The position numbers were made by a program, and so were the translations under genes. Below the pieces are notes generated by a model that was not told where the DNA came from, did no database searches, and worked only from the letters and a program-made list of their open reading frames with translations. This document shows, piece by piece, positions 644 through 59,813 of a stretch of DNA of 61,732 nt (the first letter of the stretch is position 1; each line of letters opens with the position of its first letter). The stretch spans positions 1 to 61,732 of the forward strand of contig JAAYVC010000006.1 in the NCBI GenBank assembly GCA_012517375.1. The letters run 5' to 3'. The stretch is from a bacterium. GTDB taxonomy: Bacteria > Hydrothermota > Tepidihabitantia > B3-TA06.

Positions 644-671
644 TTGACTTCCCTTATCTTTCCCATAAACT
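644..671 (+). promoter_or_regulatory. Promoter of addB, leaderless type
   Basis: TTGACT (644-649), 16-base spacer, TAAACT (666-671). The addB ATG lies 5 bases after the -10 box and no Shine-Dalgarno sequence precedes it, so transcription should begin at or next to the start codon. Confidence 0.75.
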
Positions 672-676
672 GAACC

Positions 677-3373
677 ATGTCCTCATCTAACCGCGAAACC
701 GGTAAACCTCTTAAATTGCTTGTCAAGCGCCCGCTCCGCTCGCCCTCGTTCGCGCGAAAGCTTCTTGCCGAACTTGAGATACCCAAGCGCTTCAGTCCCG
801 AAGATATACTCTACCTGACGCCTAACAAACGCAGGGCGCGCTCTGCAATGTTCGAGATACTCTCCCTTTATAACGGAAGCGCATTTAGAACGCCGGAATG
901 CTTTACGCTTCAGACCTATGCGGAGAGTCTCGTAAACATGGAATCCAGGAAAGGTCTTGTCGACGAGTTGGACCGCAGGTTTATCCTTCTAAAACTCCTG
1001 CGCGGTTCGAAGAGCAAATGGTTCAAAGAGGAGCATCTGGGGCTTTTATCTACACTTTATTCCGAACTATGCCGCCATCATCCCGAGGGATGGGAAAAGA
1101 TATCTTCCCTCGCTACTCAAGAGATATTCGACCTTGATACCGAGAAAAGACTTCAAGAAGCGGTAGGGCTTCTCGAAATCTACGAAAAGCATTTGAAAGA
1201 CGAAGCGCTGCTCGATCACGAAAGGGTTCTTTCAGAGGCTGAATCCTTAATAAAAAAGGACCGTCATAAACTGCTGATCACGGAGGGCTATTTCGAACCA
1301 TGGGAGTCCGAGAAAAAGTTCTTAAGAGAACTCGTGAAGAACATACCCGAGATACTCGTCATCATCCCAGATGATGCGATTGCAGCAGAAGCGGAAGTTT
1401 TTTATACTGCTCAAGGGTTGCTAGCGAGGGAAGGATACTCTGATTCAGCTCCACCCAAATCAAACTGGAACCGTTACCGGTCGCGTGAAGACGAGGTCGT
1501 TGCCATTGCAAGAAAAATATGTTCGCTTTCGCTCAAGGGGGTAAGACCGGAAGAAATAAATGTTGTTTTCCCGAACCTTGGCGCCTACCGCTCGCTCGTG
1601 GAAAGGGTCTTTCGAAGATACAATCTCAATCCGAGAATCTCCATGAAGCCGAAACTCGATTCATTTCCTTCGGCCAGGGTTGTGCTCGATATTCTCCTTA
1701 CAGTGGAGAACAAGTTCAGGAGACGGGATATCGTAGCGCTCCTGCTTTCGCCTTGCTTTACGAAAATTCCTTCGAGCGTCAAAATATGGCTGGATGAACT
1801 TTCAAAAGATGAAGGAGTTATTGCGGGCGAGAGTTCATGGATTCAATGGTTTCTGAAAGAACCTCCGCACAAACTCAAAAAACATCCCCAGGGCGCTCAA
1901 ATCATAAGCGATATCAAGAGATTCATCTCCGGTTTCATTAAAAGGTTAGAGGTTTTCAAAAGAGCCATGACCGCGGATGCTTTTTCTGCAAGGATTCTGG
2001 AAACACTCGAATGGCTTGGCTGGAACGCTCCCCATGAAATCAAACGCGGTCTTAAAGACGTTTTCCTGAAGCTTTCACGAATCGCGGAGCTTGCCCAGGA
2101 AAGGGAGTTGTCGCCACGATTCATTCGTGAATCCCTCGATACACTGATGCGCCGTGAACTGGATTCGGGTGATGAAGAAGAAAAGACGGACGCAATCAGG
2201 GTTATGCCGCTTGTCGAAAGCCGCTGGCTAGAAACCCGCTATCTGTTCGTTGGAGGCCTTGTGGAAGGCGAGTTTCCGCCTTATCCCAAGCGCGATATTC
2301 TGCTTCCGGAAAGACTTAAGAAGCCGCTTTCGATTCCCTCCTCCGAACACGCTTTCACTAACGCGGAGTTCGAGCTCAAAAGGCTTGAAAATATGGCTTC
2401 CGAAGCCTTCTTCCTGTCAGCGCCCGCTCTCGAAGCCGACAGACCCTTGCTTACATCATTTTTGCTCGTTGAACGGGATGAAACGCCTCATCTTGAGGAC
2501 CCGAATCTCTACTCCATACAAGAGGAGCTGCTCTTCAACCCACGGGGAAAATATGAAAAAAAGCAGGGTGTTATTTTTGAGGATGCGGATTCGTTGAATA
2601 TGCTTGAGGAGAGATTCGGCAAAAACTATCCATTCAGGGTTACGCTTCTTGAAACCTATCGTGCGTGCCCTTATAGGTATTATCTTTCATCCGTTCTGGG
2701 TTTCCAGGCTTCTCAAGAACCCAGCGAAGAACCTGAGGCCAGATTCCTGGGAACCGTTGTACACAGGGTGCTTGAGAAACTAATGCGTTTATTGCCAGCC
2801 TCGTCTGCAATGGAGGAGAAGTTTCTGGAACTCTTGACTGCTGAACTCGATAATCTCAACATCAACCCGTTTGTCAAATTATGGATAGAAGATTGGGTCC
2901 GTTCGCGCATGGACTGGTTCATATCCGAGGAGGAGGTTCGCATTGATAAAGGATGGATGCTTGATCCAGAGTGGCTCGAGAAGGATTTGACTCTCTATTT
3001 CGAGGACAAGGGATATACACTCAAGGGGAGGGTGGACAGGGTAGACTGGAGGGATAGTAGCGCAAGGGTAATAGACTACAAGACCGGCAAGGAGAAGGGT
3101 TTCAAAGGAAAGCTGGAAAGAGGAGAATCCCTTCAGTTACCGCTCTACTGCCAGATGATAAGACTCAGTGCGAAAGCAAACGTTTCTTCATTCGCTCTAT
3201 ACGATTTTAATGAATCAAGAGTCGAGGAGATAGCGGACCCCGAAGCATTCATCCGCAAAGCTATGCAAGTGGCCTCGGAATGCATCTCGGACATAAGACG
3301 GGGCCTATTCAGCGTACCGGAAAAAAAGCCGGAAGCTTGCTATTTCTGCGAGTACAGTGAGATGTGTTCATGA
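677..3373 (+). CDS. addB: AddB-like ATP-dependent nuclease subunit B (PD-(D/E)XK, Fe-S)
   Basis: Partner of the downstream AddA in processing double-strand DNA ends for recombination. The C-terminal third carries a PD-(D/E)XK nuclease: the VIDYKTG motif at about residues 798-804 follows a GRVDRVDW strand. Cysteines near 664 (RACPYRYY) and at 888, 891 and 897 match the four-Cys iron-sulfur staple of AddB/Cas4-like nucleases. At 898 residues it is shorter than Firmicute AddB (about 1150), and the N-terminus shows no GxxxxGK(S/T) Walker A motif, so the helicase-like half is probably inactive. First gene of an addB-addA-era operon; its stop overlaps the addA ATG. The ATG start fits the leaderless promoter just upstream. 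Confidence 0.85.
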   Translation: MSSSNRETGKPLKLLVKRPLRSPSFARKLLAELEIPKRFSPEDILYLTPNKRRARSAMFEILSLYNGSAFRTPECFTLQTYAESLVNMESRKGLVDELDRRFILLKLLRGSKSKWFKEEHLGLLSTLYSELCRHHPEGWEKISSLATQEIFDLDTEKRLQEAVGLLEIYEKHLKDEALLDHERVLSEAESLIKKDRHKLLITEGYFEPWESEKKFLRELVKNIPEILVIIPDDAIAAEAEVFYTAQGLLAREGYSDSAPPKSNWNRYRSREDEVVAIARKICSLSLKGVRPEEINVVFPNLGAYRSLVERVFRRYNLNPRISMKPKLDSFPSARVVLDILLTVENKFRRRDIVALLLSPCFTKIPSSVKIWLDELSKDEGVIAGESSWIQWFLKEPPHKLKKHPQGAQIISDIKRFISGFIKRLEVFKRAMTADAFSARILETLEWLGWNAPHEIKRGLKDVFLKLSRIAELAQERELSPRFIRESLDTLMRRELDSGDEEEKTDAIRVMPLVESRWLETRYLFVGGLVEGEFPPYPKRDILLPERLKKPLSIPSSEHAFTNAEFELKRLENMASEAFFLSAPALEADRPLLTSFLLVERDETPHLEDPNLYSIQEELLFNPRGKYEKKQGVIFEDADSLNMLEERFGKNYPFRVTLLETYRACPYRYYLSSVLGFQASQEPSEEPEARFLGTVVHRVLEKLMRLLPASSAMEEKFLELLTAELDNLNINPFVKLWIEDWVRSRMDWFISEEEVRIDKGWMLDPEWLEKDLTLYFEDKGYTLKGRVDRVDWRDSSARVIDYKTGKEKGFKGKLERGESLQLPLYCQMIRLSAKANVSSFALYDFNESRVEEIADPEAFIRKAMQVASECISDIRRGLFSVPEKKPEACYFCEYSEMCS

Positions 3374-7472: not shown

Positions 7473-8387
7473 CTACCACTTTTTGAGCTTCCATAAAAGA
7501 AATACTCCGGCTGCTGAAATAAGAGCCATACCCAGGATTATCCAGTATGTGTAAGGACCCGCCTTCAATGGCAGGGGCACGTTCATAGAGAAAGCGCTGA
7601 CCACGAAGGTCGGAAGCATTATTCCGAGAGTTATTATGGTCAACGTTTTCATGATTATATTCAGATTATTGCTTACTATTGATACCCGCGCATCCATAAG
7701 CCCTGCAAGAATGTTTGAGTATATCTCGGCCTGTTTAGAGCATTGATTACTGTCAATTAAGATATCTTCGATAAGCTCGAGTTCAAAGGCAGAGAAACCA
7801 ATTTTTGCGGAGTTGAGACGGAGCTTTTCTATAACCACACCGTTGGCGTTTATGGCGTTTAAGTAGTAGACAAGACTCTTTTCAAGCGTAAAAAGGTTTA
7901 TAAGGTATTTGTTGCCCATCGATGCGTTTATCTTGCCTTCAAGCTCCTCTGAAAGCATATTGATTATCTTCAGGTGTTCGTTGAAATGATAAATGGTTCT
8001 GTAAATTATCTTTAACACTACCTCCGCAAGCGAATTTATCTTCATGAAATGCTTGCCTTCAAATGAAGGCGCTTCGTCGTAGCACACAACAACCAGGCGG
8101 TTCTTAAATAAATAGATACCGGTTGATGTTACCTTGAAAAAGAATAAGTCCTTGGCCTGATAACTCTTCGGTCGTTTGAATATTAAAGCCACATGGTCCG
8201 GCTCGAACTCAAGACGCGGAAGCTCGTCCGGGTCTGCAACCGAGTTAAGCGTATGTTCGTCCAGCTTCAATTCATCAATTAAGTATCTTTTTTCCGTCTC
8301 ATCAGGATTCACGTAAATCAAGATGCGATCTTCTTCGTTTTTGTCCTCAACGATGCGTCCGTCGAGTAATTTGTAGCTCTTATGCAT
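7473..8387 (-). CDS. corA: CorA-family divalent cation transporter, SMN variant
   Basis: Inner-membrane magnesium/cobalt channel of the CorA family. A long soluble N-terminal domain is followed by two C-terminal membrane helices and a basic tail (WKLKKW). The selectivity-filter motif is normally YGMN; here it reads FSMNVPLP at about residues 266-273, so the first filter glycine is serine. That may change ion preference. Start ATG has an AAAGGAGC ribosome site. Monocistronic with its own promoter. 304 residues is typical. Confidence 0.85.
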   Translation of the reverse strand: MHKSYKLLDGRIVEDKNEEDRILIYVNPDETEKRYLIDELKLDEHTLNSVADPDELPRLEFEPDHVALIFKRPKSYQAKDLFFFKVTSTGIYLFKNRLVVVCYDEAPSFEGKHFMKINSLAEVVLKIIYRTIYHFNEHLKIINMLSEELEGKINASMGNKYLINLFTLEKSLVYYLNAINANGVVIEKLRLNSAKIGFSAFELELIEDILIDSNQCSKQAEIYSNILAGLMDARVSIVSNNLNIIMKTLTIITLGIMLPTFVVSAFSMNVPLPLKAGPYTYWIILGMALISAAGVFLLWKLKKW

Positions 8388-8441: not shown

Positions 8442-8469
8442 AGTATAGGCCTGAGCCGTTAAGTGTCAA
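8442..8469 (-). promoter_or_regulatory. Promoter of corA
   Basis: On the minus strand, TTGACA (8469-8464), 16-base spacer, TATACT (8447-8442). A leader of about 50 bases with a Shine-Dalgarno site follows. Confidence 0.75.
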
Positions 8470-9497: not shown

Positions 9498-10606
9498 GAG
9501 CGTTCCTTCGCGATTGAAGCAAAAAGCAGTTTCTCAACCCTTCTTGCTACCTTGTCCCATGTCAAGCTTTTTGACCATTCAAGATTTTCGGCTCCCATCT
9601 TTTCTCTTAATGAGGCATCAAGCAAAAGCTTCTCAATATATCCAGCCATCTCTTTTATATTGCCGTGTTCGTATAGAAAACCTGTTTTTCCGTCTATTAC
9701 CGAATCGGTAAGCCCAGGAACCCTTGCCGCGACAACGGGTGTTGCGCATGCCCCTGCATCTGTAGCAAGGAAACCCCAGCCCTCCTTTGCCGAGGGTTGT
9801 ACTGCGACGCTCGCTCTTCTGTAGAGCTCAGCCACTTCATTCAGAGGTACCCACCCTAGAAAGCTTACTCTCTCGGAAAGCCCCAGACTCGTTGTCAGCT
9901 TTTCGAGCCTTTTTCGGTCAGGCCCGGCGCCGGCTATTTCGCAGCGTATATCCAGTCCCTTCTCCGCGAGCATTGAAACGGCGTATACGAGATGGTCAAT
10001 GCACTTATACTGCATCAGTCGAGTCACAGTTGCAATCAGGTTTTTTTCTTTTTTTCCGCCTGGTTTGAAGACAGGATTGACTCCTACTTGAAGCACTTCT
10101 ATTTTTTCTCTATCCATCCCCATACCTGCAAGTTCTTCTCTTCCTGATGCGCCAAGGCAGCTGAAAAGCCCTTTTTTGTACACTCTTGGAATAAGCGATT
10201 CCGTGAGATACACGTAGGAGCCTGGTAAAAAACCCGCTTCCTTGAATATCTCTCTTCGGAAGACATGCATTAGCATTCCTGCAACCGGGATCGAGCCTCT
10301 CCAGAGAGGCGTATAGAAAGGTATCTTGTTCAAGTCGTCTATGACTACATCGAAATCGTTAGCCCTAAGATAAGCGCGAATCGGCGAGCCGTACAAATGA
10401 AAGTTGAATGTATTGCGGCTTCCTGTTCTGACTATTCTTATTCCGTCAAGAATTTCATGATGGGCTGCACCCTTGTATCCGGAACACAAGAGCGTAACAT
10501 CGTGACCGAACCCGACAAGCCTTGTAAGAATCTCCTTCAGATAAAACTCGGCGCCTCCTTTTTGCGGAGCTTTCCAGTCCTGCCAGTTAATGGCAAGTAT
10601 CTTCAT
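9494..10606 (-). CDS. Glycosyltransferase family 4 (GT-B)
   Basis: Retaining GT-B glycosyltransferase. The N-terminus has the GGAEFYLKEIL motif of GT4 enzymes; the C-terminal donor-binding region contains PSAKEGWGFLATDAG, which resembles the EX7E motif with Asp for the second Glu, and VVAARVPGLTDSVIDGKTG. The donor is unknown; the gmd and rmd genes upstream in the same operon suggest a GDP-deoxyhexose. ATG start with GGAGGA eight bases upstream. Coupled to the downstream flippase-like gene by a four-base overlap. Confidence 0.82.
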   Translation of the reverse strand: MKILAINWQDWKAPQKGGAEFYLKEILTRLVGFGHDVTLLCSGYKGAAHHEILDGIRIVRTGSRNTFNFHLYGSPIRAYLRANDFDVVIDDLNKIPFYTPLWRGSIPVAGMLMHVFRREIFKEAGFLPGSYVYLTESLIPRVYKKGLFSCLGASGREELAGMGMDREKIEVLQVGVNPVFKPGGKKEKNLIATVTRLMQYKCIDHLVYAVSMLAEKGLDIRCEIAGAGPDRKRLEKLTTSLGLSERVSFLGWVPLNEVAELYRRASVAVQPSAKEGWGFLATDAGACATPVVAARVPGLTDSVIDGKTGFLYEHGNIKEMAGYIEKLLLDASLREKMGAENLEWSKSLTWDKVARRVEKLLFASIAKERS

Positions 10607-14327: not shown

Positions 14328-14516
14328 CTAGACGCGCGCTACCTTGCCTGCTTTGAGGCACTTAGCGCACACAAGAATCGTTTCTATCTTGTTGCCTTTA
14401 CGAACCTTAACGCTCTGCAGATTTACTTCATACCTGCGGCTTGAGATCTTATGGGAGTGAGATATCTGGTGTCCCCTAAGCGCTCCTTTGCCGCATACTT
14501 CGCAAACTCTCGACAT
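14328..14516 (-). CDS. rpmB: 50S ribosomal protein L28
   Basis: 62 residues, complete. CEVCG at the N-terminus and CAKCL near the C-terminus give the four-cysteine zinc-binding (C+) form of L28. The GHQISHSHKISSRRYEVNLQ core is characteristic. AAGGAGG lies nine bases before the ATG. It is the first gene of the minus-strand run that continues into the SIMPL/gmd operon, with a 51-base gap. Confidence 0.95.
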   Translation of the reverse strand: MSRVCEVCGKGALRGHQISHSHKISSRRYEVNLQSVKVRKGNKIETILVCAKCLKAGKVARV

Positions 14517-14553: not shown

Positions 14554-14581
14554 AGTCTACTTGTTTAGACGTCAAAGTCAA
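14554..14581 (-). promoter_or_regulatory. Promoter of rpmB
   Basis: TTGACT (14581-14576), 16-base spacer, TAGACT (14559-14554) on the minus strand. The spacer contains GTCTA, six bases later TAGAC, an inverted repeat reaching into the -10 box. Leader of about 37 bases with AAGGAGG. Confidence 0.65.
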
Positions 14582-15674: not shown

Positions 15675-16370
15675 CTACAGAGGTTCGATTTCGTAAACTA
15701 CGTGCATGGTAACTGAAAAACTCGTTTCTCCCGGCTCCACACTCGCCTGGCGCGCTTGAGGCTGAGCGGCAGCATACTCCCGCATTGCCCCTGGCTGAGT
15801 GGATTGTGCGTAGTAAGGGTAATTGGGATAAAACCCCGGTTCGTTTTCTGAAACTGAAACGGGTGTTCCTAGACGGAACCCGAGAATATCTGCGGCTTTT
15901 TCGGCTTTCTGTTTAGCCGCCTCCAATGCCCGAATTCTGGCATCTGCTGTATGCTTTTTAGGTTCTTCAACCGTAAAGTTGATGCTGTGAACGCCTGTTG
16001 CTCCGGCTTCGACCGCAAGATCGAGTATGTCGGATACCAGAGCAAGATCTCTGGCGGTAATCATTAGATAGTGGAAGATTCTGTAGCCGTCTATTACCTG
16101 TCTCGTGGTGTTGGAGATAATCTTGTAGTAAGGCATTATGGAAAAATAAAAGCTTTTGATATCCCTGGATTCAATGCCGAGCGTTTTAACCCTGGAGATT
16201 ATCTGATTTGCAAGCTTGTTGTTTTCTTTATAAGCTTTTGCCGCATTCTTGTGTTCTGATTCAACCGTAAAAGTCATATAGCACACGTCCGGTGATAGCG
16301 TAACTTTTGCCGTCCCCGAAACTTGAATGGTGCGGCGTGGAAGCGGTAGAATACCGGCTTGTTCGTTCAC
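15675..16370 (-). CDS. SIMPL (DUF541) domain protein 3, no signal peptide
   Basis: 231 residues; the N-terminus (MNEQAGILPLPRRTIQVSG) goes straight into the SIMPL core with no hydrophobic segment, so unlike its two paralogues it is predicted to stay in the cytoplasm or use another route. Core motifs SPDVCYMTFTVES and VHSINFTVEEP match. The start is GTG, fixed by GGAGG five bases upstream. A region before the last strand is rich in Gln, Ala and Pro. First gene of the two-gene SIMPL transcript, divergent from pepA. Confidence 0.83.
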   Translation of the reverse strand: MNEQAGILPLPRRTIQVSGTAKVTLSPDVCYMTFTVESEHKNAAKAYKENNKLANQIISRVKTLGIESRDIKSFYFSIMPYYKIISNTTRQVIDGYRIFHYLMITARDLALVSDILDLAVEAGATGVHSINFTVEEPKKHTADARIRALEAAKQKAEKAADILGFRLGTPVSVSENEPGFYPNYPYYAQSTQPGAMREYAAAQPQARQASVEPGETSFSVTMHVVYEIEPL

Positions 16371-16394: not shown

Positions 16395-16422
16395 ACTTTA
16401 CGTATAGATATTTTAAAGTCAA
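16395..16422 (-). promoter_or_regulatory. Promoter of SIMPL 3/2 transcript
   Basis: TTGACT (16422-16417), 16-base spacer, TAAAGT (16400-16395) on the minus strand; 24-base leader with GGAGG. It is back to back with the pepA promoter, -35 boxes 15 bases apart. Confidence 0.6.
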
Positions 16423-16437: not shown

Positions 16438-16465
16438 TTGACATCACCTTTCTTTCGCCTATACT
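16438..16465 (+). promoter_or_regulatory. Promoter of pepA
   Basis: TTGACA (16438-16443), 16-base spacer, TATACT (16460-16465). Leader of 35 bases before the pepA ATG. An in-frame TTG at 16438 belongs to the -35 box and is not the start. Confidence 0.78.
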
Positions 16466-19267: not shown

Positions 19268-19295
19268 TTGACTAACCTTAAATTTCTGCTAAACT
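19268..19295 (+). promoter_or_regulatory. Promoter of pheT, leaderless type
   Basis: TTGACT (19268-19273), 16-base spacer, TAAACT (19290-19295). The pheT ATG begins 6 bases after the -10 box. An AGGG at 19297-19300 is too close to the ATG to be a normal ribosome site. Confidence 0.72.
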
Positions 19296-28318: not shown

Positions 28319-28346
28319 TTGACAATCTTAAGCCTAGAGGTATACT
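28319..28346 (+). promoter_or_regulatory. Promoter of the methyltransferase pair
   Basis: TTGACA (28319-28324), 16-base spacer, TATACT (28341-28346). Leader of about 80 bases. Two similar stretches containing TTCAGGC (28301-28307 and 28349-28355) flank the promoter and could be a pair of regulator sites. Confidence 0.72.
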
Positions 28347-31632: not shown

Positions 31633-31660
31633 AGTATACGGAGGGAAAGGGGAAAGTCAA
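31633..31660 (-). promoter_or_regulatory. Promoter of guaAB-guaAA, leaderless type
   Basis: TTGACT (31660-31655), 16-base spacer, TATACT (31638-31633) on the minus strand; the ATG lies 5 bases further on. The -35 box is only six bases from that of the divergent hydrolase promoter. Confidence 0.75.
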
Positions 31661-31666: not shown

Positions 31667-31694
31667 TTGACCGGTAGCGTAAATCATCTATAAT
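31667..31694 (+). promoter_or_regulatory. Promoter of the alpha/beta hydrolase, leaderless type
   Basis: TTGACC (31667-31672), 16-base spacer, TATAAT (31689-31694). The ATG lies 8 bases after the -10 box, with no ribosome site. Confidence 0.75.
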
Positions 31695-32777: not shown

Positions 32778-32972
32778 TTACCACAAAAGCCCTAATCTTC
32801 CTCCGAGGTATAACAGACCTGCGAAAAGGACGCCGCCTGCTGCAGCGATAATAAAATGAACCAGAGTCTTCTCGCCCCTGTTGCGACGATTCCATCCCCA
32901 GAAAAGGAAAACGAGTCCGGCAAGTCCGAACGCAATAGCCGTAATCGAGATAACGATTCCCCAGGTGCTCAT
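32778..32972 (-). CDS. Two-helix small membrane protein
   Basis: 64 residues with two hydrophobic helices separated by a short basic loop (WNRRNRGEKT). An in-frame start further upstream would place coding sequence over the promoter, so the ATG at 32972 is chosen: it lies 5 bases after a -10 box. No family recognised. Divergent from surE. Confidence 0.7.
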   Translation of the reverse strand: MSTWGIVISITAIAFGLAGLVFLFWGWNRRNRGEKTLVHFIIAAAGGVLFAGLLYLGGRLGLLW

Positions 32973-32977: not shown

Positions 32978-33005
32978 AGCATATTCTTAATGGAATCATT
33001 GTCAA
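32978..33005 (-). promoter_or_regulatory. Promoter of the small membrane protein, leaderless type
   Basis: TTGACA (33005-33000), 16-base spacer, TATGCT (32983-32978) on the minus strand; 5 bases to the ATG and no ribosome site. Confidence 0.68.
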
Positions 33006-33055: not shown

Positions 33056-33083
33056 TTGACCGAGGATATATATTCCATAAAAT
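33056..33083 (+). promoter_or_regulatory. Promoter of surE, leaderless type
   Basis: TTGACC (33056-33061), 16-base spacer, TAAAAT (33078-33083); the ATG follows after 5 bases without a ribosome site. Confidence 0.72.
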
Positions 33084-34835: not shown

Positions 34836-34863
34836 AGTATATAGTCTTCAACACAATCGTCAA
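34836..34863 (-). promoter_or_regulatory. Promoter of the TGS GTPase
   Basis: TTGACG (34863-34858), 16-base spacer, TATACT (34841-34836) on the minus strand; 28-base leader with AAGGA. It starts just past the subtilase terminator. Confidence 0.72.
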
Positions 34864-41512: not shown

Positions 41513-44167
41513 TTATCCGCCGATTACGACTACCTTGACCTTCCTGTGAATATCTGGCGTGTCGAGCTTTATAAAATAAACTCCGGCTTTGCATGAGGAG
41601 GGTATCGAAAACTGGTGGATACCGCTATCAAGTTTTCCATTATACAGAGTCTCAATCTTTCTTCCGGTGACGTCAAACAACTCAAGGACAACCTTCTCAT
41701 TTCCTGTAAGTTCTAGTGTAAATCCAGAACCTTCCATGGCTACAGCCGGGCATTGAATCGAAGTTACGGGACATTCGGTACCTGGTTGGTTTATTCCACT
41801 AAGACCTACTATAGTATGAAAAACAAGGGTGTCAATCTTTGAACCGCCGTTCTGGAATACGGTAAGATTAAAAGTCATTGCATCATCCTTCTTGGCGTAC
41901 GGCTCAAGAGTTACTGAGAATCCTTGACCTTCAGATGTAAGACCCGCAGATATGGAGCCGTAGTCGGCATCCGAATCCAAGATTGTTACAAAGGTATCCG
42001 GTGACGAAAGCAGGGCATTGGCATTCGATACATCCTCGTCACCTTCATTCATTATTCTTGGATAAAGAATCGCGGTTTCTCCGGGGTCAAGGGCGTTATT
42101 TGGTTGCGGGTTAGAAGAATCGTCGATCCTGATTCCCTCTGCGGAAATATGCGGCTCTTTATTTTCGATTACACCGTTGATTACGAGGGCATAAGGTTGA
42201 GGACCTTGCGGAATATTTGCAGCCAGTATGTGAATCTCCCACGTGCCTAGCTCAGGATTATTGATTCGAAGGCATTCCTCGACGTTAGTTTCGTCTTTGG
42301 CGCCTGAAGTGACTGAAAAGCCTGAGGAGAAGACATTTCCCAGGTATATCTTTCCGGATGGCGATACAGCCTTGATGTCAAGATCGTTAACGAGTTTTTT
42401 TGAGGAAACCATATCTCCAGGAAAATCGGACCAGACTAACGTTGCCCTCAATGGCCAGTTCTTTCCTGAAACTTCGACCTTGTATAAGGCGTCATCACCG
42501 GTTTCAAGACCAATGACATTATCACTTACGTACAGTTTCTTCGTGTTTCCTTCGAAATAAAGAACTGAATCGAGACACACTCTTCCCCAGCCCACCTTCA
42601 TATCCGGTATAGGATTCGAAGAGAAATCCGCAACGGCCGAGTTGATGAGCAGGGCTTTGAGAAGAGCCGCCGAAGGGTCAAAACCATCAGCTGCGTCCAA
42701 AGAGTTAGAGCCTGAAGGGTACCAGCCTTCTCTGAAGTACTGTGCGAGCAAAACAGTAATCCCAGCAACAGCAGGGGAGGACATGCTTGTTCCTTCCATG
42801 GATTTATAGCCCGACGTAGAGGCACCGTCTGCAGACATGAGATAACCGGGCGCCGTTATCGTCGGCTTTATTCGACCGTCAGCCGTAGGACCTTGACTTG
42901 AAAACCCGGCCGGAATCGTCGCCGATGTACCGTTCAACGTCGCCCCCACGGATACTACGTTCTTTGCAGTAGAAGGGGGGCTAATGCCTGAACCTGAGGA
43001 GTTTCCGGCTGAATAAAGAACGAGAAAATCGGGATGATTCCACATGAACTCATCCGTCTGCCTTGATGCGAGGTCGTAAGTGTTGTATGAACCACCGGAG
43101 CCCCAGCTGTTCGACATTAGTTTAGCACTGCCACCCTGATTTCCCTGCCAGGGAAGCTCGTACATGTCGTTATAATCAGCTGGATATGCTATTCCGCCTG
43201 AATTGGTGCCTACATCCACAAAATAAAGTTTTGCACCCTTGGCCATACCGTCGTATGGTGAATCGCCGTTCCAGTATGAATCGTCTCCGCAAACCGTGCA
43301 GCCGGTGTGGGTTCCGTGGTACTGGACGTAAGGTGTGCCGTCATCTCCGAAATTCGCGCCTGGAGCCGAAGGCTGATAGGCTATTATCTTTCTGTGGTTG
43401 GGGAAATTGCCCCAGGTCGCAATCTCGATTGTCGAATCCTTGAACGCAGTATGACTGGTTGTTATTCCGGCGTCACCGGTGCTTGCTACAACGCCTGAGC
43501 CGTCAAGACCTTTGCTCCACAAATCGCGCTTATCCTCTTTCCAGCTCTGCAGAACCCATTGAGCCTGGTCGTTAAAGAATTCGGGCGAATAAAACGGCTC
43601 AATCCATCTTATATCGTCAATGGCTGCAAGTTCGTATAGAAATTGATTATCCATGGAAATCTTCAAAAGCTTGTTCCGTCCATTATGGATGGAATATATC
43701 CTTGCTCCGAAGTCGCTTTCCAGCCTCAGTCGGAGCGTGTTGATATCAGCATCATCGAAAAGCCATAAGTGAAGAGTATCAGAAGCGGCTGAACGGTCGA
43801 TTAAGGATGGTGCGAGCTTCCAGCGGGGCTCGTATGCAGAACACCATGAGATGGCTCCCAGGTTCAGAAGAGCTGAGACATCGCTATAGCTTGAGGAAAC
43901 AAGAAATGCATAATGCGGAAGATAGCCTTCGATACGGATTCCCGTACGCTGGATGGCGGCAATATCGGTATTAGCAATAGGATGATCTAACTTAATAATG
44001 AATCTATGGCCGGATTCGTCAACCGACCCTGAGCGGGAGAGAGTGTTGATGGTCTCATCTTGAAGTAAAAGAAGGTTTGAATCCTTAAGAGGCTCGGATT
44101 TGTAAGAAGTCAGATAAGGCCCAAGAACTCCCACTCCTGAGAAAACGAGGAGTGTGAAAAGGTTCAT
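41513..44167 (-). CDS. Secreted subtilase (S8) 3 with sorting domain
   Basis: 884 residues. Signal peptide (MNLFTLLVFSGVGVLGPYL), propeptide, catalytic Asp in STGDAGITTSH (DAG in place of the common DSG), His in YHGTHTGCTVCGD, Ser in EGTSMSSP. Shares the PNNALDPGETA module and the FDVTGRKIETLYN/GVYFIKLDTP sorting domain with its neighbours. The ATG at 44167 overlaps the glmL stop (ATGA), so an exported protease is translated from the same mRNA as cytosolic enzymes, an unusual arrangement. Confidence 0.88.
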   Translation of the reverse strand: MNLFTLLVFSGVGVLGPYLTSYKSEPLKDSNLLLLQDETINTLSRSGSVDESGHRFIIKLDHPIANTDIAAIQRTGIRIEGYLPHYAFLVSSSYSDVSALLNLGAISWCSAYEPRWKLAPSLIDRSAASDTLHLWLFDDADINTLRLRLESDFGARIYSIHNGRNKLLKISMDNQFLYELAAIDDIRWIEPFYSPEFFNDQAQWVLQSWKEDKRDLWSKGLDGSGVVASTGDAGITTSHTAFKDSTIEIATWGNFPNHRKIIAYQPSAPGANFGDDGTPYVQYHGTHTGCTVCGDDSYWNGDSPYDGMAKGAKLYFVDVGTNSGGIAYPADYNDMYELPWQGNQGGSAKLMSNSWGSGGSYNTYDLASRQTDEFMWNHPDFLVLYSAGNSSGSGISPPSTAKNVVSVGATLNGTSATIPAGFSSQGPTADGRIKPTITAPGYLMSADGASTSGYKSMEGTSMSSPAVAGITVLLAQYFREGWYPSGSNSLDAADGFDPSAALLKALLINSAVADFSSNPIPDMKVGWGRVCLDSVLYFEGNTKKLYVSDNVIGLETGDDALYKVEVSGKNWPLRATLVWSDFPGDMVSSKKLVNDLDIKAVSPSGKIYLGNVFSSGFSVTSGAKDETNVEECLRINNPELGTWEIHILAANIPQGPQPYALVINGVIENKEPHISAEGIRIDDSSNPQPNNALDPGETAILYPRIMNEGDEDVSNANALLSSPDTFVTILDSDADYGSISAGLTSEGQGFSVTLEPYAKKDDAMTFNLTVFQNGGSKIDTLVFHTIVGLSGINQPGTECPVTSIQCPAVAMEGSGFTLELTGNEKVVLELFDVTGRKIETLYNGKLDSGIHQFSIPSSCKAGVYFIKLDTPDIHRKVKVVVIGG

Positions 44168-46014
44168 TCCGGGTACATCTCCAGTGCTTTTGCCCATTTA
44201 TTAAGGGACTGCATGCGTTTTTTGGGTTCCTGCGGAAGATTGAATGGTCTTCCTCGGCAATCTAAAATAAGCCCTACCTGGCCGCCTACCAGCTCGGTTT
44301 CGACGCTCTTGCCGGAGCCTGCCCCGACATCGAACCCTCTTTCGGGATAAATCTCAGCCTTTACTTTTTCGTCCACGCCAAGCTTGAGTTTGACCATCTC
44401 TCCGAAGTTGACTGAAACTTCCTCTTCATTTCCCTTGGCGGGTTTTAAGACGAGTCTCAGGCATTTAGCTCCTTCTTTCCCCTGTCCGACTGGCGCAATC
44501 GCGGTACCCAAGCGGATTAGACAGTCCTTCTGGAAGACCTCTTCCGCAGCAGCCTCGTTTACCTCGGTCAAAACTCCGAGATGGGGCATCATGAAGATTG
44601 AGTCCACTGCAAGCTGGGTTATGCCTTCTGGAAGGAACGCATCGAGCATGAGCATTGCCGCCTGTGAGCGTCTTGGTGAATGGGAAAGCGCTCCGCCCGA
44701 ACCTACAACGAGCGAAAGGGACATCATGTTGACAAGCGTAGCGCCCGAAGATGTCTGTGCGAAAGCGTCCGCAATCGAGCGTTCCTGCTGAACGCCCTTA
44801 AGTCCAACTGCCATTGTGCGGTGCTGGACTAAAGCGAGCCTCAACGCCTCGCGGGCGACGGCATGCTCCATCTTGAGGTCGGCAAGAGAGGCGGGAATGG
44901 TTGTCGGTCTTATCATCTTGTTGCGGATTCTGTTTCTCAAATCGGTTATATCCACGTCAAACGGTATCCAGCGGAGTATATTATCGTTTCCGGCCTCTAC
45001 GAGAACGTTCGATATGCTGTAGCTCATTCCCAGATTGGCGCTGACGGTTCTGTTGAATACACGCTCGATTTTGTCGGTTTCGGCCTGCTTTTCTCCAAAA
45101 ACGCTGAACACATCAGTTGTTGCTCCGCCTATATCGACTCCAAGCACGTCTATGCCTTCGCGCTTTCCCAGGCGTTCTATCAATAATCCCACCGCGCCGG
45201 GCGTGGGCATTATAGGTACGTCGGTCCATTCCATAAGCTTCTTGTATCCTGGTGCGTGAGCCATGACGTGCTCCATGAAGAGCTCGTGTATCTTGTCCCT
45301 TGCTGGCCGGAGATTTTCTCTTTCGAGCACTGGCCTTAGGTTTTCTACAACCACAAGTTCGGTCGAGTCCTTAAGCGTATCGAGGATTATCTTTCGCGCA
45401 TCCTTGTTGCCGGCGTATATCACCGGAAGGCTGTAGGTGGTTCCGAATCTCGGTCGCGGATCTGCCGCACGAATCAATTCGGCGAGTTCTGCAACGTGCG
45501 AGACCGTTCCGCCGTCAACTCCGCCTGAGAGAAGAATCATATCCGGCCGCAGATGACGTATGCGTTCAATCTTCTTGTGTGGAAGCCTGCCGTCGTTCGA
45601 GGCTATAACGTCCATCACTATGGCTCCTGCGCCCAGTGCCGCCCTCGCTGCGCTCTCTCCGGTCATTGATAATACCACGCCCGCGACCATCATCTGGAGT
45701 CCGCCGCCTGCAGAAGACGTAGAAATATAAACGTCAACACCCTCTTTCTTGTTTTTTGCCGGTTTGATTATCTTTTCACCGTCAAGTATCTTCTTTCCGG
45801 TAAGTTCTTCCACCTCCCGGATTGAATTAAGAACGCCTCTTGTAACGTCCTCAAAAGGCGCCTCGACCGTTGTCGGCGCTTCGCCGCGCACTACAAGACG
45901 GTATTCATCTCCCTGTTTTTCGATAAGAATCGCCTTCGTGGTCGTTGAACCGCAATCGGTTGCAAGTATCGTTTCGACCTTTCCCTTGTCGAATGTCTTA
46001 CTTTCTTTTGCCAC
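44164..46014 (-). CDS. glmL: GlmL/MutL-family ATPase (B12-mutase-associated)
   Basis: 616 residues of the MutL/GlmL family, an actin-like ATPase fold found with adenosylcobalamin-dependent glutamate mutase and aminomutases and thought to help their reactivation. ATDCGSTTTKAILIE at the N-terminus is the phosphate-1 loop; DVIASNDG, LSGGVDGGTVSH and GVDIGGATTDVFS are the other family motifs. No mutase subunit is in the window. The start is GTG (46014) with AAGGAGC; longer in-frame extensions overlap the upstream gene. Not the mismatch-repair MutL. Confidence 0.85.
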   Translation of the reverse strand: MAKESKTFDKGKVETILATDCGSTTTKAILIEKQGDEYRLVVRGEAPTTVEAPFEDVTRGVLNSIREVEELTGKKILDGEKIIKPAKNKKEGVDVYISTSSAGGGLQMMVAGVVLSMTGESAARAALGAGAIVMDVIASNDGRLPHKKIERIRHLRPDMILLSGGVDGGTVSHVAELAELIRAADPRPRFGTTYSLPVIYAGNKDARKIILDTLKDSTELVVVENLRPVLERENLRPARDKIHELFMEHVMAHAPGYKKLMEWTDVPIMPTPGAVGLLIERLGKREGIDVLGVDIGGATTDVFSVFGEKQAETDKIERVFNRTVSANLGMSYSISNVLVEAGNDNILRWIPFDVDITDLRNRIRNKMIRPTTIPASLADLKMEHAVAREALRLALVQHRTMAVGLKGVQQERSIADAFAQTSSGATLVNMMSLSLVVGSGGALSHSPRRSQAAMLMLDAFLPEGITQLAVDSIFMMPHLGVLTEVNEAAAEEVFQKDCLIRLGTAIAPVGQGKEGAKCLRLVLKPAKGNEEEVSVNFGEMVKLKLGVDEKVKAEIYPERGFDVGAGSGKSVETELVGGQVGLILDCRGRPFNLPQEPKKRMQSLNKWAKALEMYPE

Positions 46015-46333: not shown

Positions 46334-47753
46334 CAAGGTCCTTTGCCGCCTTGACTTCGTCGAGTCTCTTTACGGGCGTCGTATGCGGCGCTTTGCGAAG
46401 CATCTCAGGATTAATCCGGGCTTCTTCGAGAATCCGTCTCGACGCTTCGGCAAAGCTGTTGAGAGTATCAATGGATTCCGTTTCTGTCGGTTCGACCATA
46501 AACGCTTCCGACACGATGAGGGGGAAATAAATAGTCGGAGCATGAAAGCCGTAATCAAGAAGTCTTTTGGCGAAATCGGTCGTTTTGAGATTGTGCTGGC
46601 GCAGCGGTTTTCCTGAAGCCACAAATTCGTGCATACAAGCCCTGTTGAATGGAATTTCTAGTATGTTTTCGAAGAGCTTGCGAAGATAGTTTGCATTGAC
46701 AATTGCATTCTTCGATATCTCGGTCATTCCTTCCGCTCCGAGCATTCTTATGTAAGTATATGCCCTGACAAGGATTAAGAAATTTCCGTAATAACCGAGA
46801 AGCTTGCCAATGGACAGCGGTTTGTCGTAGTCGAGCCGGTATCCATCTGAGGTTTTCCCGACACGCGGAACAGGAAGAAACCGCTCGAGTTCTTTTGTAA
46901 CGCCGACAGGACCCGAACCCGGACCGCCTCCGCCGTGAGGGGTCGAGAAGGTTTTGTGCAGGTTGAAATGCATGAGGTCGAAGCCCATTTCACGAGGTTT
47001 GATGATTCCGACAAGCGCATTAAGGTTAGCGCCGTCCATGTAGGCAAGCGCTCCGGCGTTGTGAACTTTTTCAATAACCTTGCAGATATCTTTTTCAAAC
47101 AGCCCAAGTGTGTTGGGATTCGTGACCATTATCAGCGCTACATCCTGCGAGAGTTTTCGCTCAAGGTCTTCAATATCGATAAGTCCTTCTGAGGTCGAGG
47201 AAACGGTTACGGACTCAAAACCGGCAAGCGTAACGCTCGCCGGATTGGTTCCGTGCGCGGAATCGGGAATCAGGACTTTTGTCCGTCTCTCTCCCTTATT
47301 CTTGAAATAAGCCCTTGTGATAAGATTGGCACACAGCTCCCCCTGCGCGCCTGCCGCAGGCTGGAGTGTAACGGCATCAAATCCCGAGATTTCGGACAGT
47401 AGTCTTTCAAGATCATAGATAAGTTCCAGAGCGCCCTGTGCGAGTGATTCAGGAGCCATGGGATGTATTCCTGAAAATCCGGGCATTCTTGCAGCGCTTT
47501 CGTTAATCTTAGGGTTGTACTTCATCGTACACGATCCGAGCGGATAGAATCCTTTATCGACGTGATGATTGAGATAGGATAACGCTACAAAGTGTCTTGC
47601 CAATTCAGGTTCTGCAACCTCCGGAAGACCTGCTTCCTTTTTTCTGAGATAGCGTTCTGGGATGTAATCGGTTATCTGTCTTGTCGGAACATCCGGTTTA
47701 GGAAATTGATAACCCTTGCGATTTGGTTCGGAGAGTTCAAAAAGCAATTTCAT
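46311..47753 (-). CDS. gcvPB: Glycine dehydrogenase (decarboxylating) subunit 2
   Basis: C-terminal half of the P-protein of the glycine cleavage system, 480 residues, of the two-subunit type. The PLP-lysine lies in HFNLHKTFSTPHGGGGPGSGP; the AHGTNPAS and YMDGANLNA motifs are present. The partner gcvPA, gcvH and gcvT are not in the window. First gene of a unit that continues into glmL and subtilase 3. No ribosome site; leaderless promoter. Confidence 0.93.
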   Translation of the reverse strand: MKLLFELSEPNRKGYQFPKPDVPTRQITDYIPERYLRKKEAGLPEVAEPELARHFVALSYLNHHVDKGFYPLGSCTMKYNPKINESAARMPGFSGIHPMAPESLAQGALELIYDLERLLSEISGFDAVTLQPAAGAQGELCANLITRAYFKNKGERRTKVLIPDSAHGTNPASVTLAGFESVTVSSTSEGLIDIEDLERKLSQDVALIMVTNPNTLGLFEKDICKVIEKVHNAGALAYMDGANLNALVGIIKPREMGFDLMHFNLHKTFSTPHGGGGPGSGPVGVTKELERFLPVPRVGKTSDGYRLDYDKPLSIGKLLGYYGNFLILVRAYTYIRMLGAEGMTEISKNAIVNANYLRKLFENILEIPFNRACMHEFVASGKPLRQHNLKTTDFAKRLLDYGFHAPTIYFPLIVSEAFMVEPTETESIDTLNSFAEASRRILEEARINPEMLRKAPHTTPVKRLDEVKAAKDLDVCFRPD

Positions 47754-47759: not shown

Positions 47760-47787
47760 ATACTATTCAGATTAGGCTTTTTGTCAA
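47760..47787 (-). promoter_or_regulatory. Promoter of gcvPB, leaderless type
   Basis: TTGACA (47787-47782), 16-base spacer, TAGTAT (47765-47760) on the minus strand; the ATG lies 6 bases further on, with no ribosome site. Confidence 0.7.
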
Positions 47788-47889: not shown

Positions 47890-48276
47890 CTATTTCTTTA
47901 TCGCCATGCCGCTCATCTCGACCACCGGAATCCAGATAATACCCGGAATCAATGCCATAGGCATCATTGCAGTGGTGATGTTTATTACGCCGTTAGCGCC
48001 CAGGGCTTTGGCTTCCTTTGCCAGCTGTTCGTACAATGCATCCTGGATCTGCGGGCCGAACATCGGGTAAAGCGGAGGTATCACTCCGATGCAGCTGAAG
48101 GCGAGATTTATCTTCATGGCGCGAACCATGCCTATCGGCGTATAGTCGCCGTCTTTCATGTCGCCTGTTGTGCAGAATACGTCAGATGGTGGCGGGACTT
48201 TTGATACAGCCTGCCAGGCGCATCCGCCAAGAGTCAGTATGGCTATGACGGGGATAAGAATGAGCAGTTTTTTCAT
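47890..48276 (-). CDS. Small lipoprotein, YbjQ-like pattern
   Basis: 128 residues. Lipoprotein signal (MKKLLILIPVIAILTLGGC) with cysteine at 19 preceded by LGG, a good lipobox. The LAKEAKALGANGVINI segment resembles the helix-strand motif of YbjQ/DUF74-like proteins, but the match is short. Own promoter, AAGGAGG before the ATG and a strong terminator make it a one-gene unit. Function unknown. Confidence 0.78.
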   Translation of the reverse strand: MKKLLILIPVIAILTLGGCAWQAVSKVPPPSDVFCTTGDMKDGDYTPIGMVRAMKINLAFSCIGVIPPLYPMFGPQIQDALYEQLAKEAKALGANGVINITTAMMPMALIPGIIWIPVVEMSGMAIKK

Positions 48277-48301: not shown

Positions 48302-48329
48302 AGTTTATTCAACTTCTTAATCTTGTCAA
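48302..48329 (-). promoter_or_regulatory. Promoter of the lipoprotein gene
   Basis: TTGACA (48329-48324), 16-base spacer, TAAACT (48307-48302) on the minus strand; 25-base leader with AAGGAGG. Confidence 0.76.
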
Positions 48330-52673: not shown

Positions 52674-53840
52674 TTATGGCTTAAGTTTTACCGTAAGGAA
52701 GTCCGATACGGCATCGGCATTCAAGGTATTTCCAGTAGCGTAAATGCTGCCGTCATTGCCAAGACAGATATCATAACCGTAATCATTCCCTCCCGAGTCG
52801 AAAAGCGTATCCCAGACCAGGATTCCTTTTGAGTCGTACTTGGCTATCATGAAGTCGTAGTTATCCGTCGAAAGGTGCGTACCCAGGAGATAGACCGAGC
52901 CCGAACCATTAGTTGCTATACTTGCTGTCGGGTTAGTGTTGTCCGACGCGTTTGTCTTCGTCCAGAGCACATTGCCGTCGGAATCGTACTTCACTATCGC
53001 GTACTCGCCTGCCGGGGCCGCGACCATTGTATAGCCTGCCACGTATACGTCGCCCTGAAGGTCAACCGCTACGCCGTGACCGTATATGCCGTCATCCGAG
53101 CCCGAATCATAAGTTTTGTTCCACTGCAGGTTACCGTTTGTGTCGAACTTCAATGTGAGAAAATCTGAACTAGCGCCCGCTCCCTCAGGCTTGGTAAAAC
53201 CGGCAACGTATACGGAGCCTGCATCATCCACGGCCACGCCGTGCGCCTGCTCGTTGTTGCCTGAATCGTAGATTTTCGACCAGAGGATGTCGCCGTCGGC
53301 ATCCGTCTTGATAAGTGCGATATCCGCGCTCGTCGCATTGACCTTGCGGCCCGCGATGTACAGGTTGCCTGAAGCGTCTGAGGCAATGTCGTAGGCGTAG
53401 GCGTGTGACATAAGCTCCTTATTCAAGACCATGTTGCCCGAAGCGTCGTACTTTATGAGCCTGATGCAGTTGACGCTGGAATCCAGACATACCGAAGCTC
53501 CGGTAACATAAACGTCACCTGCGCTTGATACGACCAGACCTAACACCTCGTCGTTGTTCGAGCTGTCGTAGGCTTTGTCCCAGATGATGGTTCCTTCGGA
53601 GTCGTACTTGAGAGTTCGGAAATCGTAGTACGTTCCATTCTTCGAGCTTCCGCCAACGTAAACGTTGCCTGATGCGTCAGCCGCGATGGCATGAGCCGCA
53701 TCATTCGTACCCGAGTCGTAGGTCTTAAACCACAAAACCTCGGCTGGTGCTTCAGGGGTGCAGTTGAGCCCGACCGATGTCACAAGGACCGATATTGTCG
53801 TCAGGAAAAAAATAATTCGTCTGTTAGCTTTAGTTGTCAT
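52674..53840 (-). CDS. SBBP-repeat beta-propeller, exported
   Basis: 388 residues. Hydrophobic N-terminus (FFLTTISVLVTSVGLNC) with a cysteine at about 27 that could be a lipoprotein site, although Asn at -1 is atypical. The rest is about seven repeats of the SBBP type (ASGNVYVGG / YDSGxNDxA), one propeller. No sorting domain, in contrast with the propellers at the window ends, so if exported it may be lipid-anchored. AAAGGAG before the ATG, own promoter. Confidence 0.82.
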   Translation of the reverse strand: MTTKANRRIIFFLTTISVLVTSVGLNCTPEAPAEVLWFKTYDSGTNDAAHAIAADASGNVYVGGSSKNGTYYDFRTLKYDSEGTIIWDKAYDSSNNDEVLGLVVSSAGDVYVTGASVCLDSSVNCIRLIKYDASGNMVLNKELMSHAYAYDIASDASGNLYIAGRKVNATSADIALIKTDADGDILWSKIYDSGNNEQAHGVAVDDAGSVYVAGFTKPEGAGASSDFLTLKFDTNGNLQWNKTYDSGSDDGIYGHGVAVDLQGDVYVAGYTMVAAPAGEYAIVKYDSDGNVLWTKTNASDNTNPTASIATNGSGSVYLLGTHLSTDNYDFMIAKYDSKGILVWDTLFDSGGNDYGYDICLGNDGSIYATGNTLNADAVSDFLTVKLKP

Positions 53841-53895: not shown

Positions 53896-53923
53896 AGAAT
53901 ACTTATTCAGACTGATTTGTCAA
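53896..53923 (-). promoter_or_regulatory. Promoter of the SBBP propeller
   Basis: TTGACA (53923-53918), 16-base spacer, TATTCT (53901-53896) on the minus strand; about 55-base leader. CTCGA-GTAA-TCGAG lies at the expected transcription start. Confidence 0.72.
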
Positions 53924-54551: not shown

Positions 54552-54554
54552 TGC

Positions 54555-57335: not shown

Positions 57336-57646
57336 AACTCACAAACTTTTTCGGTAACGTACTCGGCGGCTTCCGAGAGATTTTTAGATGCACGTTTCTT
57401 GAGTTCCTCCGCTTCCTTTTCGGCGTCTTTTTTGATTCTCAGGGCTTCCTCTTTTGCCTCTTCCTCCGACCGCTTCCGCGCATCATCCAGAGCCTTGTCG
57501 CGCTCTTGAGAGAGTGACTGAAGTTCCCTCTCGGAGCGCTCGGCAAACTCCTTCATCTGGTTCTCGTTTTTTTCTTCGGCGGTCTTTATCATCTCCGCCG
57601 CTTGTCTTTCGGCCTCGCGTATTTCTTTCAAGAGATCGTTAGCCAA
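57317..57646 (-). CDS. ntpG: V/A-type ATPase subunit G/H
   Basis: 109-residue peripheral-stalk helix, almost entirely Glu/Lys/Arg/Ala coiled coil (EKNENQMKEFAERSEREL and onward). The start is TTG (57646) behind AAGGAG at eight bases; longer in-frame starts would run into the promoter. First gene of the G/H-I-K-E operon. Catalytic subunits A and B, and C, D and F, are not in the window. Confidence 0.8.
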   Translation of the reverse strand: MANDLLKEIREAERQAAEMIKTAEEKNENQMKEFAERSERELQSLSQERDKALDDARKRSEEEAKEEALRIKKDAEKEAEELKKRASKNLSEAAEYVTEKVCELWEQQR

Positions 57647-57680: not shown

Positions 57681-57708
57681 ATTATACGAGGCTCCAATCA
57701 ACTGTCAA
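57681..57708 (-). promoter_or_regulatory. Promoter of the V-ATPase operon
   Basis: TTGACA (57708-57703), 16-base spacer, TATAAT (57686-57681) on the minus strand: both hexamers are full consensus. Leader about 34 bases. Confidence 0.85.
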
Positions 57709-57772: not shown

Positions 57773-57800
57773 TTGACCTGGCATGTTTAATGAGTATCAT
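57773..57800 (+). promoter_or_regulatory. Promoter of the cyclophilin pair
   Basis: TTGACC (57773-57778), 16-base spacer, TATCAT (57795-57800); 32-base leader with GGAGG. Confidence 0.7.
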
Positions 57801-57832: not shown

Positions 57833-58483
57833 ATGAAGAAAATAATGATGCTTTCAATAATCTGCTTTGCAGCCTTGAGCTTGCTTAACTGCGGAGATAA
57901 AACAACCAAGAACGAGCCTGGAAAAATGGAGAATGTAGAAATGAAAAAAGGAGAACCGGATGCTTTCGGAATCGGTCGCTACACCGGTCAGTCAACCGTT
58001 ACAGACAGGCAGAAGATAGCGGCTGAGGTCAAGGACGTTGAGATACCTCTTGCGGGCACCGAAAAAGCCACCATAGAAACCAACAAGGGAACTATCATCG
58101 CTGAGCTTTACTCGAAGGATGCGCCTAAAACGGTCGCAAATTTCATTCGTCTTTCAGAGTCCGGCTTTTATGACGGGCTTATATGGCACCGCTTCGAGCC
58201 CGGGTTCGTCATTCAGGGCGGCGACCCCAAAGGCAACGGCACAGGCGATGCGGGCTACAACATTGTCTTCGAGAAGAACAGCCGCAAGCACGAACTAGGC
58301 GCTCTGGGCGTTGCCCGCTCCGAGGACCCCAACTCCGGCTCATGTCAGTTCTATATCTGTCTTTCGCCTCAGCCCGGCCTCGACGGCTCCTACGTTGTTT
58401 TCGGCAAGGTGCTTGAAGGCATGGATGTCGCCCAGAAGATTCGCGTAGGCGACGAGATCACGAAGATTTCAATCAGCAAGTAA
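57833..58483 (+). CDS. Cyclophilin-type peptidyl-prolyl isomerase 1, probable lipoprotein
   Basis: 216 residues. N-terminal signal ending LSLLNC suggests a lipid-anchored protein, though Asn at -1 is unusual. The cyclophilin core from ~75: [62 protein letters not shown]; catalytic Arg in WHRFEPGF and Gln in QFYI are kept. A short compact PPIase that probably folds exported proteins. Stop overlaps the next start (TAATG). Confidence 0.9.
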
Positions 58484-59238: not shown

Positions 59239-59266
59239 TTGACATATGCAGTTTTTTTTTTACAAT
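59239..59266 (+). promoter_or_regulatory. Promoter with a T10 tract in the spacer
   Basis: TTGACA (59239-59244), 16-base spacer, TACAAT (59261-59266). The spacer ends in nine T residues that run into the first T of the -10 box, so slipped replication would change the spacing. Confidence 0.72.
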
Positions 59267-59276
59267 CAAGGCATAG

Positions 59277-59300: not shown

Positions 59301-59319
59301 TCTAACCTAGGAGAAAATC

Positions 59320-59745
59320 ATGAAACCCTTAAGTATTGGAGGAAGGGCTTTACTCGTATTGCTGGTCATTGGTGCAGGTTTCGCGGCTTTTGCCAATACC
59401 GACTGGGCAGGCTACGGAACGGGCGAATGCTACGGCTACTACCCCTTTTACGTCTGGCAAGGCACTCTACAGACTGACAACCCCCCTAATTATCATTTTT
59501 GGGGCTATTGGGGTGGACAAACTAGTAACACCATAAGCTCATATCCAAACTACAACTCCGGTACAGGTAGATACGAGGTAGGACTTTCGGCGGCGAATAA
59601 GGGAACCTGGTATCGGAATTACAATTTTGGAGGATACTATACAGGCTATTATAAACCATCTGCCGATACGGCTGACGGCTACTGGTGGTATGCTCCAGAC
59701 AGCAGCAATGCCAATGGAACCTGGTGGGGCACCCTTGCGGACTGA
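59320..59745 (+). CDS. Exported aromatic- and glycine-rich protein, unknown
   Basis: 141 residues. Signal peptide (RALLVLLVIGAGFAAFA) then a mature part very rich in Tyr, Trp, Gly and Asn (e.g. YNFGGYYTGYYKPS, WGYWGGQ), with one Cys and no sorting domain. Such composition fits a small beta-sheet surface protein. No family recognised. TAGGAG before the ATG. Promoter and leader suggest strong and possibly variable expression. Confidence 0.72.
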   Translation: MKPLSIGGRALLVLLVIGAGFAAFANTDWAGYGTGECYGYYPFYVWQGTLQTDNPPNYHFWGYWGGQTSNTISSYPNYNSGTGRYEVGLSAANKGTWYRNYNFGGYYTGYYKPSADTADGYWWYAPDSSNANGTWWGTLAD

Positions 59746-59758
59746 TAATCTGTTAACT

Positions 59759-59782
59759 GGGCGGCGGATTTCACCGCCGCCC
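59759..59782 (+). terminator. GC-rich hairpin after the aromatic-rich gene
   Basis: GGGCGGCGG with its exact inverse (9 pairs, 6-base loop) right after the stop; no T-tract follows, so it may be a weak or factor-assisted terminator or a 3' stabiliser. The next promoter begins four bases later. Confidence 0.55.
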
Positions 59783-59785
59783 GGC

Positions 59786-59813
59786 TTGACATAAGATGGA
59801 TCTAAGCTATTCT
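59786..59813 (+). promoter_or_regulatory. Promoter of the right-end propeller gene
   Basis: TTGACA (59786-59791), 16-base spacer, TATTCT (59808-59813); 18-base leader with AGGAGG. Confidence 0.72.

Follow-up and report, generated by a model that had tools for sequence, protein, structure and literature searches.

Spacing of the -35 and -10 boxes in probable RpoD promoters of a candidate division WOR-3 class

Promoter predictors, the design of synthetic promoters and models of how RNA polymerase is seated on DNA all assume a 17-base spacer between the -35 and -10 boxes. For E. coli sigma-70, the optimum was given as 17 ± 1 (PMC8695583) and the 17-nt spacer accounted for 27% of the annotated promoters (PMC9303308). 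The window studied here, i.e., the whole stretch of 61,732 nt that was analyzed, raises the question of whether this distance is the same in all lineages. An earlier note had listed 19 sites in it with exactly 16 bases between the two boxes, and had proposed a house-keeping sigma factor with unusually strict geometry. It is therefore asked here whether the spacing is real, which sigma factor is likely to be responsible and how far the preference extends among relatives.

The 16-base spacing in the window and in the genome

Both strands were scanned for the pattern TTGACN-Nx-TANNNT, with x running from 10 to 25. The window contained 20 matches at spacer 16, against 2 at 15, 2 at 17 and 1 at 18, and any non-16 value within 10-25 had 0-5 matches; in dinucleotide shuffles of the window (n = 200), spacer 16 was matched 1.43 times on average and 6 times at most. 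The 19 listed sites, 9 on the plus strand and 10 on the minus strand, all had correct coordinates and were exact TTGACN-N16-TANNNT sequences, and their 16-base spacing is confirmed as real. The 20th match, absent from the earlier list, lies within a subtilase ORF (41513-44197). The matches are as follows, distances being counted from the -10 box to the start codon.

644..671, plus strand: 16-spacer promoter of an AddB-like nuclease gene; ATG at 677, 5 bases past the -10 box, leaderless type
8442..8469, minus strand: 16-spacer promoter of a CorA-family transporter gene; ATG at 8387, 54 bases, Shine-Dalgarno motif
14554..14581, minus strand: 16-spacer promoter before a 62-codon ORF (putative acpP according to the earlier note); ATG at 14516, Shine-Dalgarno motif
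16395..16422, minus strand: 16-spacer promoter of a SIMPL/DUF541 gene; GTG at 16370, Shine-Dalgarno motif
16438..16465, plus strand: 16-spacer promoter of an M17 aminopeptidase gene; ATG at 16501; divergent from 16395
19268..19295, plus strand: 16-spacer promoter of pheT; ATG at 19302, 6 bases past the -10 box, leaderless type
28319..28346, plus strand: 16-spacer promoter before a methyltransferase gene (28426)
31633..31660, minus strand: 16-spacer promoter of a gene with a GMP-synthase C-terminal domain; ATG at 31627, 5 bases, leaderless type
31667..31694, plus strand: 16-spacer promoter of an alpha/beta hydrolase gene; ATG at 31703, 8 bases; divergent from 31633
32978..33005, minus strand: 16-spacer promoter of a 64-codon ORF; ATG at 32972, 5 bases, leaderless type
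33056..33083, plus strand: 16-spacer promoter of surE; ATG at 33089, 5 bases, leaderless type; divergent from 32978
34836..34863, minus strand: 16-spacer promoter of a GTPase/TGS gene; ATG at 34807, Shine-Dalgarno motif
41808..41835, minus strand: pattern match inside the subtilase ORF; no promoter role assumed
47760..47787, minus strand: 16-spacer promoter of a glycine dehydrogenase gene; ATG at 47753, 6 bases, leaderless type
48302..48329, minus strand: 16-spacer promoter of a 128-aa ORF; ATG at 48276, Shine-Dalgarno motif
53896..53923, minus strand: 16-spacer promoter of an SBBP/delta-60-repeat protein gene; ATG at 53840, Shine-Dalgarno motif
57681..57708, minus strand: 16-spacer promoter before a 109-codon ORF; TTG at 57646, Shine-Dalgarno motif; followed by a V-ATPase I-subunit-like gene as the next ORF
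57773..57800, plus strand: 16-spacer promoter of a cyclophilin gene; ATG at 57833, Shine-Dalgarno motif; divergent from 57681
59239..59266, plus strand: 16-spacer promoter of a 141-aa ORF; ATG at 59320, Shine-Dalgarno motif
59786..59813, plus strand: 16-spacer promoter of a 483-aa ORF; ATG at 59832, Shine-Dalgarno motif

All 19 listed sites had a start codon 5-79 bases 3' of the -10 box that opened an ORF of at least 62 codons. The start lay 5-8 bases past the -10 box in seven of them, without a Shine-Dalgarno motif (starts 677, 19302, 31627, 31703, 32972, 33089 and 47753), and 18-79 bases past it with such a motif in eleven; at site 16438 the nearest ATG was 35 bases away, without a Shine-Dalgarno motif of the kind searched for. 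Exceptions with 17 bases had been claimed for a subtilase gene and for one of two acpP options. Two 17-spaced TTGAC matches do exist in the window, starting at 10077 (plus strand) and 52633 (minus strand), but they could not be matched to the genes named.

The same preference was found throughout the 2.54-Mb assembly containing the window (G000), of which 677 kb were read directly and the remainder was counted by whole-genome pattern searches. Spacers of 15, 16, 17 and 18 bases were matched 52, 765, 230 and 140 times, and the reversed pattern, taken as background, about 53-66 times each; about 74% of the background-subtracted excess thus fell at 16 and about 17% at 17. The pattern picks near-consensus promoters, and weaker promoters could be distributed otherwise. 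In the 677 kb there were 208 sites at 16, against a mean near 21 at unrelated spacings. Although ORFs cover 89% of the DNA, 167 of these 208 sites (80%) were outside ORFs, compared with 116 of 274 (42%) at unrelated spacings; these figures are approximate because ORFs were called longest-first by a simple rule. The genome-wide preference proposed earlier, with enrichment before genes, was thus borne out: spacers of 15, 17 and 18 bases were not as common as 16, and enrichment over genes was present. Spacing 18 was rejected as a second optimum, since 15 of 36 sites at 18 were the same sites read two bases on.

It might be argued that the fixed spacing was merely selected by the search pattern, as the earlier reader had admitted to a pattern search and TANNNT is a loose box. 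However, all spacings from 10 to 25 were scanned with the same boxes, and both the reversed-pattern controls and the shuffles were flat. The same peak was also obtained from other anchors. Starting from TATAAT/TATACT and accepting TTGACA at 5/6 positions or better, there were 8 cases at 16 and 0-1 at other spacings in the window, and 53 at 16, 14 at 17 and 0-6 elsewhere in 615 kb outside it; starting from TTGACA, -10-like hexamers (at least 5/6) were found 84 times at 16, 25 times at 17 and 0-9 times elsewhere. When 150 ATG starts 5-7 bases past TANNNT were picked without regard to a -35 box, TTGACA (at least 5/6) stood at 16 in 36, at 17 in 6 and at other spacings in 0-3. Moreover, the same pattern gave 17 or 15 in relatives, which argues that the method has no bias to 16. 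A search artefact is accordingly given virtually no weight.

Register of the boxes and sigma factor

Very probably, the sites are ordinary RpoD (sigma-70 group 1) promoters with an optimum of 16 bp instead of 17, and this optimum is a heritable property of the class to which the window belongs. The spacer of the 16-spaced sites falls within the sigma-70 range of 15-19, while the E. coli-type optimum of 17 was not found (765 sites at 16 vs. 230 at 17). The -35 logo was c-TTGACA-w, in which TTGAC was fixed by the pattern, the free sixth base was A in 68-72% and the preceding base was C in 57%. At the free positions of TANNNT, T was found in 59%, A in 63% and A or C in 53% and 34%, respectively, giving TATAAT/TATACT.

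A difference of one base could also arise from the definition of the hexamers, with the true -10 or -35 box lying one base off the assumed one and a real spacing that is still 17. Against this, the 16-type genome and a 17-type relative had the same hexamers in their logos, cTTGACA at -35 and TATAAT/TATACT at -10, and the leaderless-type ATGs, which peaked 5-7 bases past the -10 box (45 of 206 sites at 16), correspond to the canonical register. Such a shift of register is thus very improbable. As the leaderless-type starts place +1 at its normal position relative to the -10 box, it is the -35 box that has moved.

The factor responsible would be RpoD. The RpoD of G000 (546 aa) contains the Pfam domains Sigma70_r1_1, r1_2, r2, r3 and r4 in order, and it is 72-73% identical to RpoD of Candidatus Stahlbacteria/candidate division WOR-3. 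Nine proteins of the genome have sigma region 2, one of them a second large sigma-70-like protein on contig 37, and an alternative sigma factor of this kind or an ECF sigma might be considered instead. However, 765 matches in the genome, together with the house-keeping genes that follow such sites in the window (pheT, surE and the genes for the aminopeptidase and the GTPase), fit a house-keeping factor, and the region 4.2 stretch of RpoD, VTRERIRQIEAKA, is identical in G000 and in 17-type relatives that use TTGACA. The conserved recognition helix of region 4.2 is in line with the unchanged TTGACA, and we regard an alternative sigma factor as quite unlikely.

If RpoD is the factor, its region 4.2 would read TTGACA and its region 2.4 would read TATAAT/TATACT, and in this class the complex would fit best with the boxes 16 base pairs apart and not 17. 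The -10 box would keep its normal distance to the transcription start and the -35 box would lie one base pair nearer. A change in the polymerase, for which RpoD region 3.0 and the beta flap are candidates, may have set the new optimum, and the promoters may then have followed.

Spacer optimum across WOR-3

In total, 147 genomes of this uncultured phylum (candidate division WOR-3) were counted with the same pattern and summed by family (f labels). The family of the window (f1) had 409, 5885, 1677 and 862 matches at 15, 16, 17 and 18, respectively, and in all ten sampled families of its class the pooled maximum was at 16. Families f2-f5 and f8-f10 were clearly 16-type and f7 mildly so, and f6 was near a tie (1621 vs. 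1379 at 16 vs. 17); among the labelled genomes, two from f6 did not exceed parity. The proposal that a 16-base spacer might serve as an annotation rule, and that related genomes might share it, therefore holds for the class of the window.

Outside this class the optimum varied. Families f12-f14, f16-f19, f24-f28, f35 (17-leaning) and f37 preferred 17; f29-f32 preferred 16 (f32 mildly), and f11, f15, f33 and f34 leaned weakly to 16, except for one f33 genome that leaned to 17. In f36, both genomes (G140 and G141) peaked at 15, with 138/81/40 and 185/100/64 matches at 15/16/17. In f20-f23 (G027-G043), TTGAC-TANNNT was scarcely enriched at 15-18, if at all, and f21 and f22 even fell below the reversed control; the primary promoters of these families may use a different -35 box. 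The genomes counted with the same pattern from outside WOR-3 (Bacillota and others) mostly preferred 17. A lean to 16 may also exist there, as in a Mcinerneyibacteriota genome (L062; 165/128 at 16/17) and a Bacillota MAG (SpSt-1200, L065; 175/154), for which the controls were 25-45.

In the RpoD tree, the class of the window formed one clade (support 100). Its sister clade was made up of 17-type families and families without a signal, and peaked at 17 where a signal existed. Seven changes of spacer type were needed when only the 16- and 17-type rows were counted, in a tree that was quickly built on RpoD itself and has some long branches, with type labels set by a cut-off of our choosing.

The claim that the geometry is unusually strict did not survive these comparisons. 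About a sixth of the excess in G000 is already at 17, as given above, and 17-type relatives were equally strict or stricter: with the same pattern, f37 had 2163 matches at 17 vs. 552 at 16 and 380 at 18 (control 645), and f24 had 236 at 17 vs. 15 and 16 at the neighbouring spacings. Families f12-f14, f16-f19, f24-f28 and f37 as a group differ from the class of the window in the optimum, while several of them are similarly strict or stricter. The distribution in E. coli looks broader, but the annotated set extends beyond near-consensus promoters and is not a like-for-like match to this pattern. The unusual feature is the shifted, evolving optimum and not its tightness.

The f36 genomes (L201, L240-L249 and L330-L339) are small and incomplete, with an optimum at 15-16 and a T-rich, TATTTT-like -10 box. 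A standard RpoD was not found in these two incomplete genomes; in G140, a sigma ORF of 192 codons without region 4 adjoins an HtrA-like gene.

Candidate causes and known systems

Several properties that might account for the shift were compared between 16- and 17-type genomes. The linker between RpoD regions 2.4 and 4.2 was rejected, being 151-152 residues in 16-type and 150-151 in 17-type proteins, with 151 the commonest length in both. The length of the beta flap was rejected as well, the measured stretch being 153 residues in f1, f3, f5, f8 and f10 and also in the 17-type f13; short flaps were found in the mildly 16-type f32-f34, the 17-leaning f35 and the 15-type f36. The base of the flap read VEPG in most of the class of the window and VPPG or VPSG in most others.

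RpoD region 3.0 touches the extended -10 element in E. coli. Its motif HMxE reads HIID in the RpoD of G000. M and E were kept in all 22 of the 17-type RpoD sequences (22/22), whereas among the 16-type sequences M was kept in 11% and E in 15%, and the motif was lost in the class of the window and again in f30/f31, so that most of the strongly 16-type sigmas lack it. On the other hand, f6 and f7 lack HMxE yet are only mildly 16-type, and weaker 16-type families keep it; the comparison of region 3.0 with the spacer comprises only four independent pairs, too few for significance. Judged from these alignments, region 3.0 may be the best lead, but it is no more than a lead and is not taken to have caused the shift. 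The extended -10 TG was present at 44% of the f37 (G143) sites and at background level (4-5%) in two genomes of the class of the window (f1 and f5). Loss of TG was rejected as a general correlate of 16, since TG was also missing in small samples of the 17-type f18 and f27.

The shorter spacer could also be an adaptation to less negatively supercoiled DNA, with the RNA polymerase unchanged. A thermodynamic model and E. coli data tie shorter spacers to relaxed DNA, but 16-nt spacers did not follow that model (PMC9303308). With few exceptions, the genomes had gyrase subunit A, whether their family was 16- or 17-type, and an absence of gyrase, which does not separate the two types, was rejected as the driver. 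We consider this explanation unlikely, with a small share of the probability left to it, and continue to prefer a changed optimum of the RpoD holoenzyme. In a synthetic E. coli library, promoters with spacer 16 were on average as strong as those with 17 (PMC8695583), and a 16-base spacer is therefore within reach of an ordinary holoenzyme.

The sites resemble E. coli sigma-70 promoters in having TTGACA and TATAAT boxes before genes and a start about 5-7 bases past the -10 box; they differ in their mode, 16 here against an optimum of 17 there. The Bacteroidetes, with primary-sigma promoters of the TAnnTTTG type, are a whole phylum with a changed primary promoter architecture. There the box sequences change too, whereas in the WOR-3 class the boxes stay and the distance alone changes. 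A literature search, with most subscription journals outside its scope, found no lineage with primary promoters peaking at 16, no paper on WOR-3 promoters and no spacer shift within a phylum.

Spacer distance, which is usually treated as close to fixed, thus differs between lineages, and promoter annotation in WOR-3 should take the spacer of the lineage concerned. With a class at 16, a sister clade at 17 and a small family near 15, the phylum offers a natural experiment on how the distance is set, with a small set of candidate residues. The distance preferred by the primary RNA polymerase could possibly be an evolvable trait of lineages, a proposal that we put forward tentatively and hold to be somewhat short of probable. 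Optima of 15, 16 and 17 occur in one phylum, on branches where residues of the beta flap and RpoD region 3.0 change as well, while the sigma linker shows no consistent change in length; small substitutions might have reset the geometry, and promoters across the genome might have followed.

Some further observations were made in G000. At its 16-spacer sites, G was enriched at -15 (36-39%), yet the extended -10 TG at -15/-14 was at background level. A leaderless-type class, with an ATG-opened ORF 5-7 bases past the -10 box, made up about 22% of the 16-spacer sites; this class was rare in the 17-type genome G143. Between its regions 1.2 and 2, the second large sigma-70-like protein (504 aa; L009:1039-2553, contig 37) has a PDZ-like segment that matched Pfam PDZ_2 (E 6e-6) slightly below the cut-off of this family, and its gene comes after a gene with two PDZ domains (HtrA-like). 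The segment resembles a fragment of a PDZ domain inserted into the sigma gene, although an assembly error may be involved.
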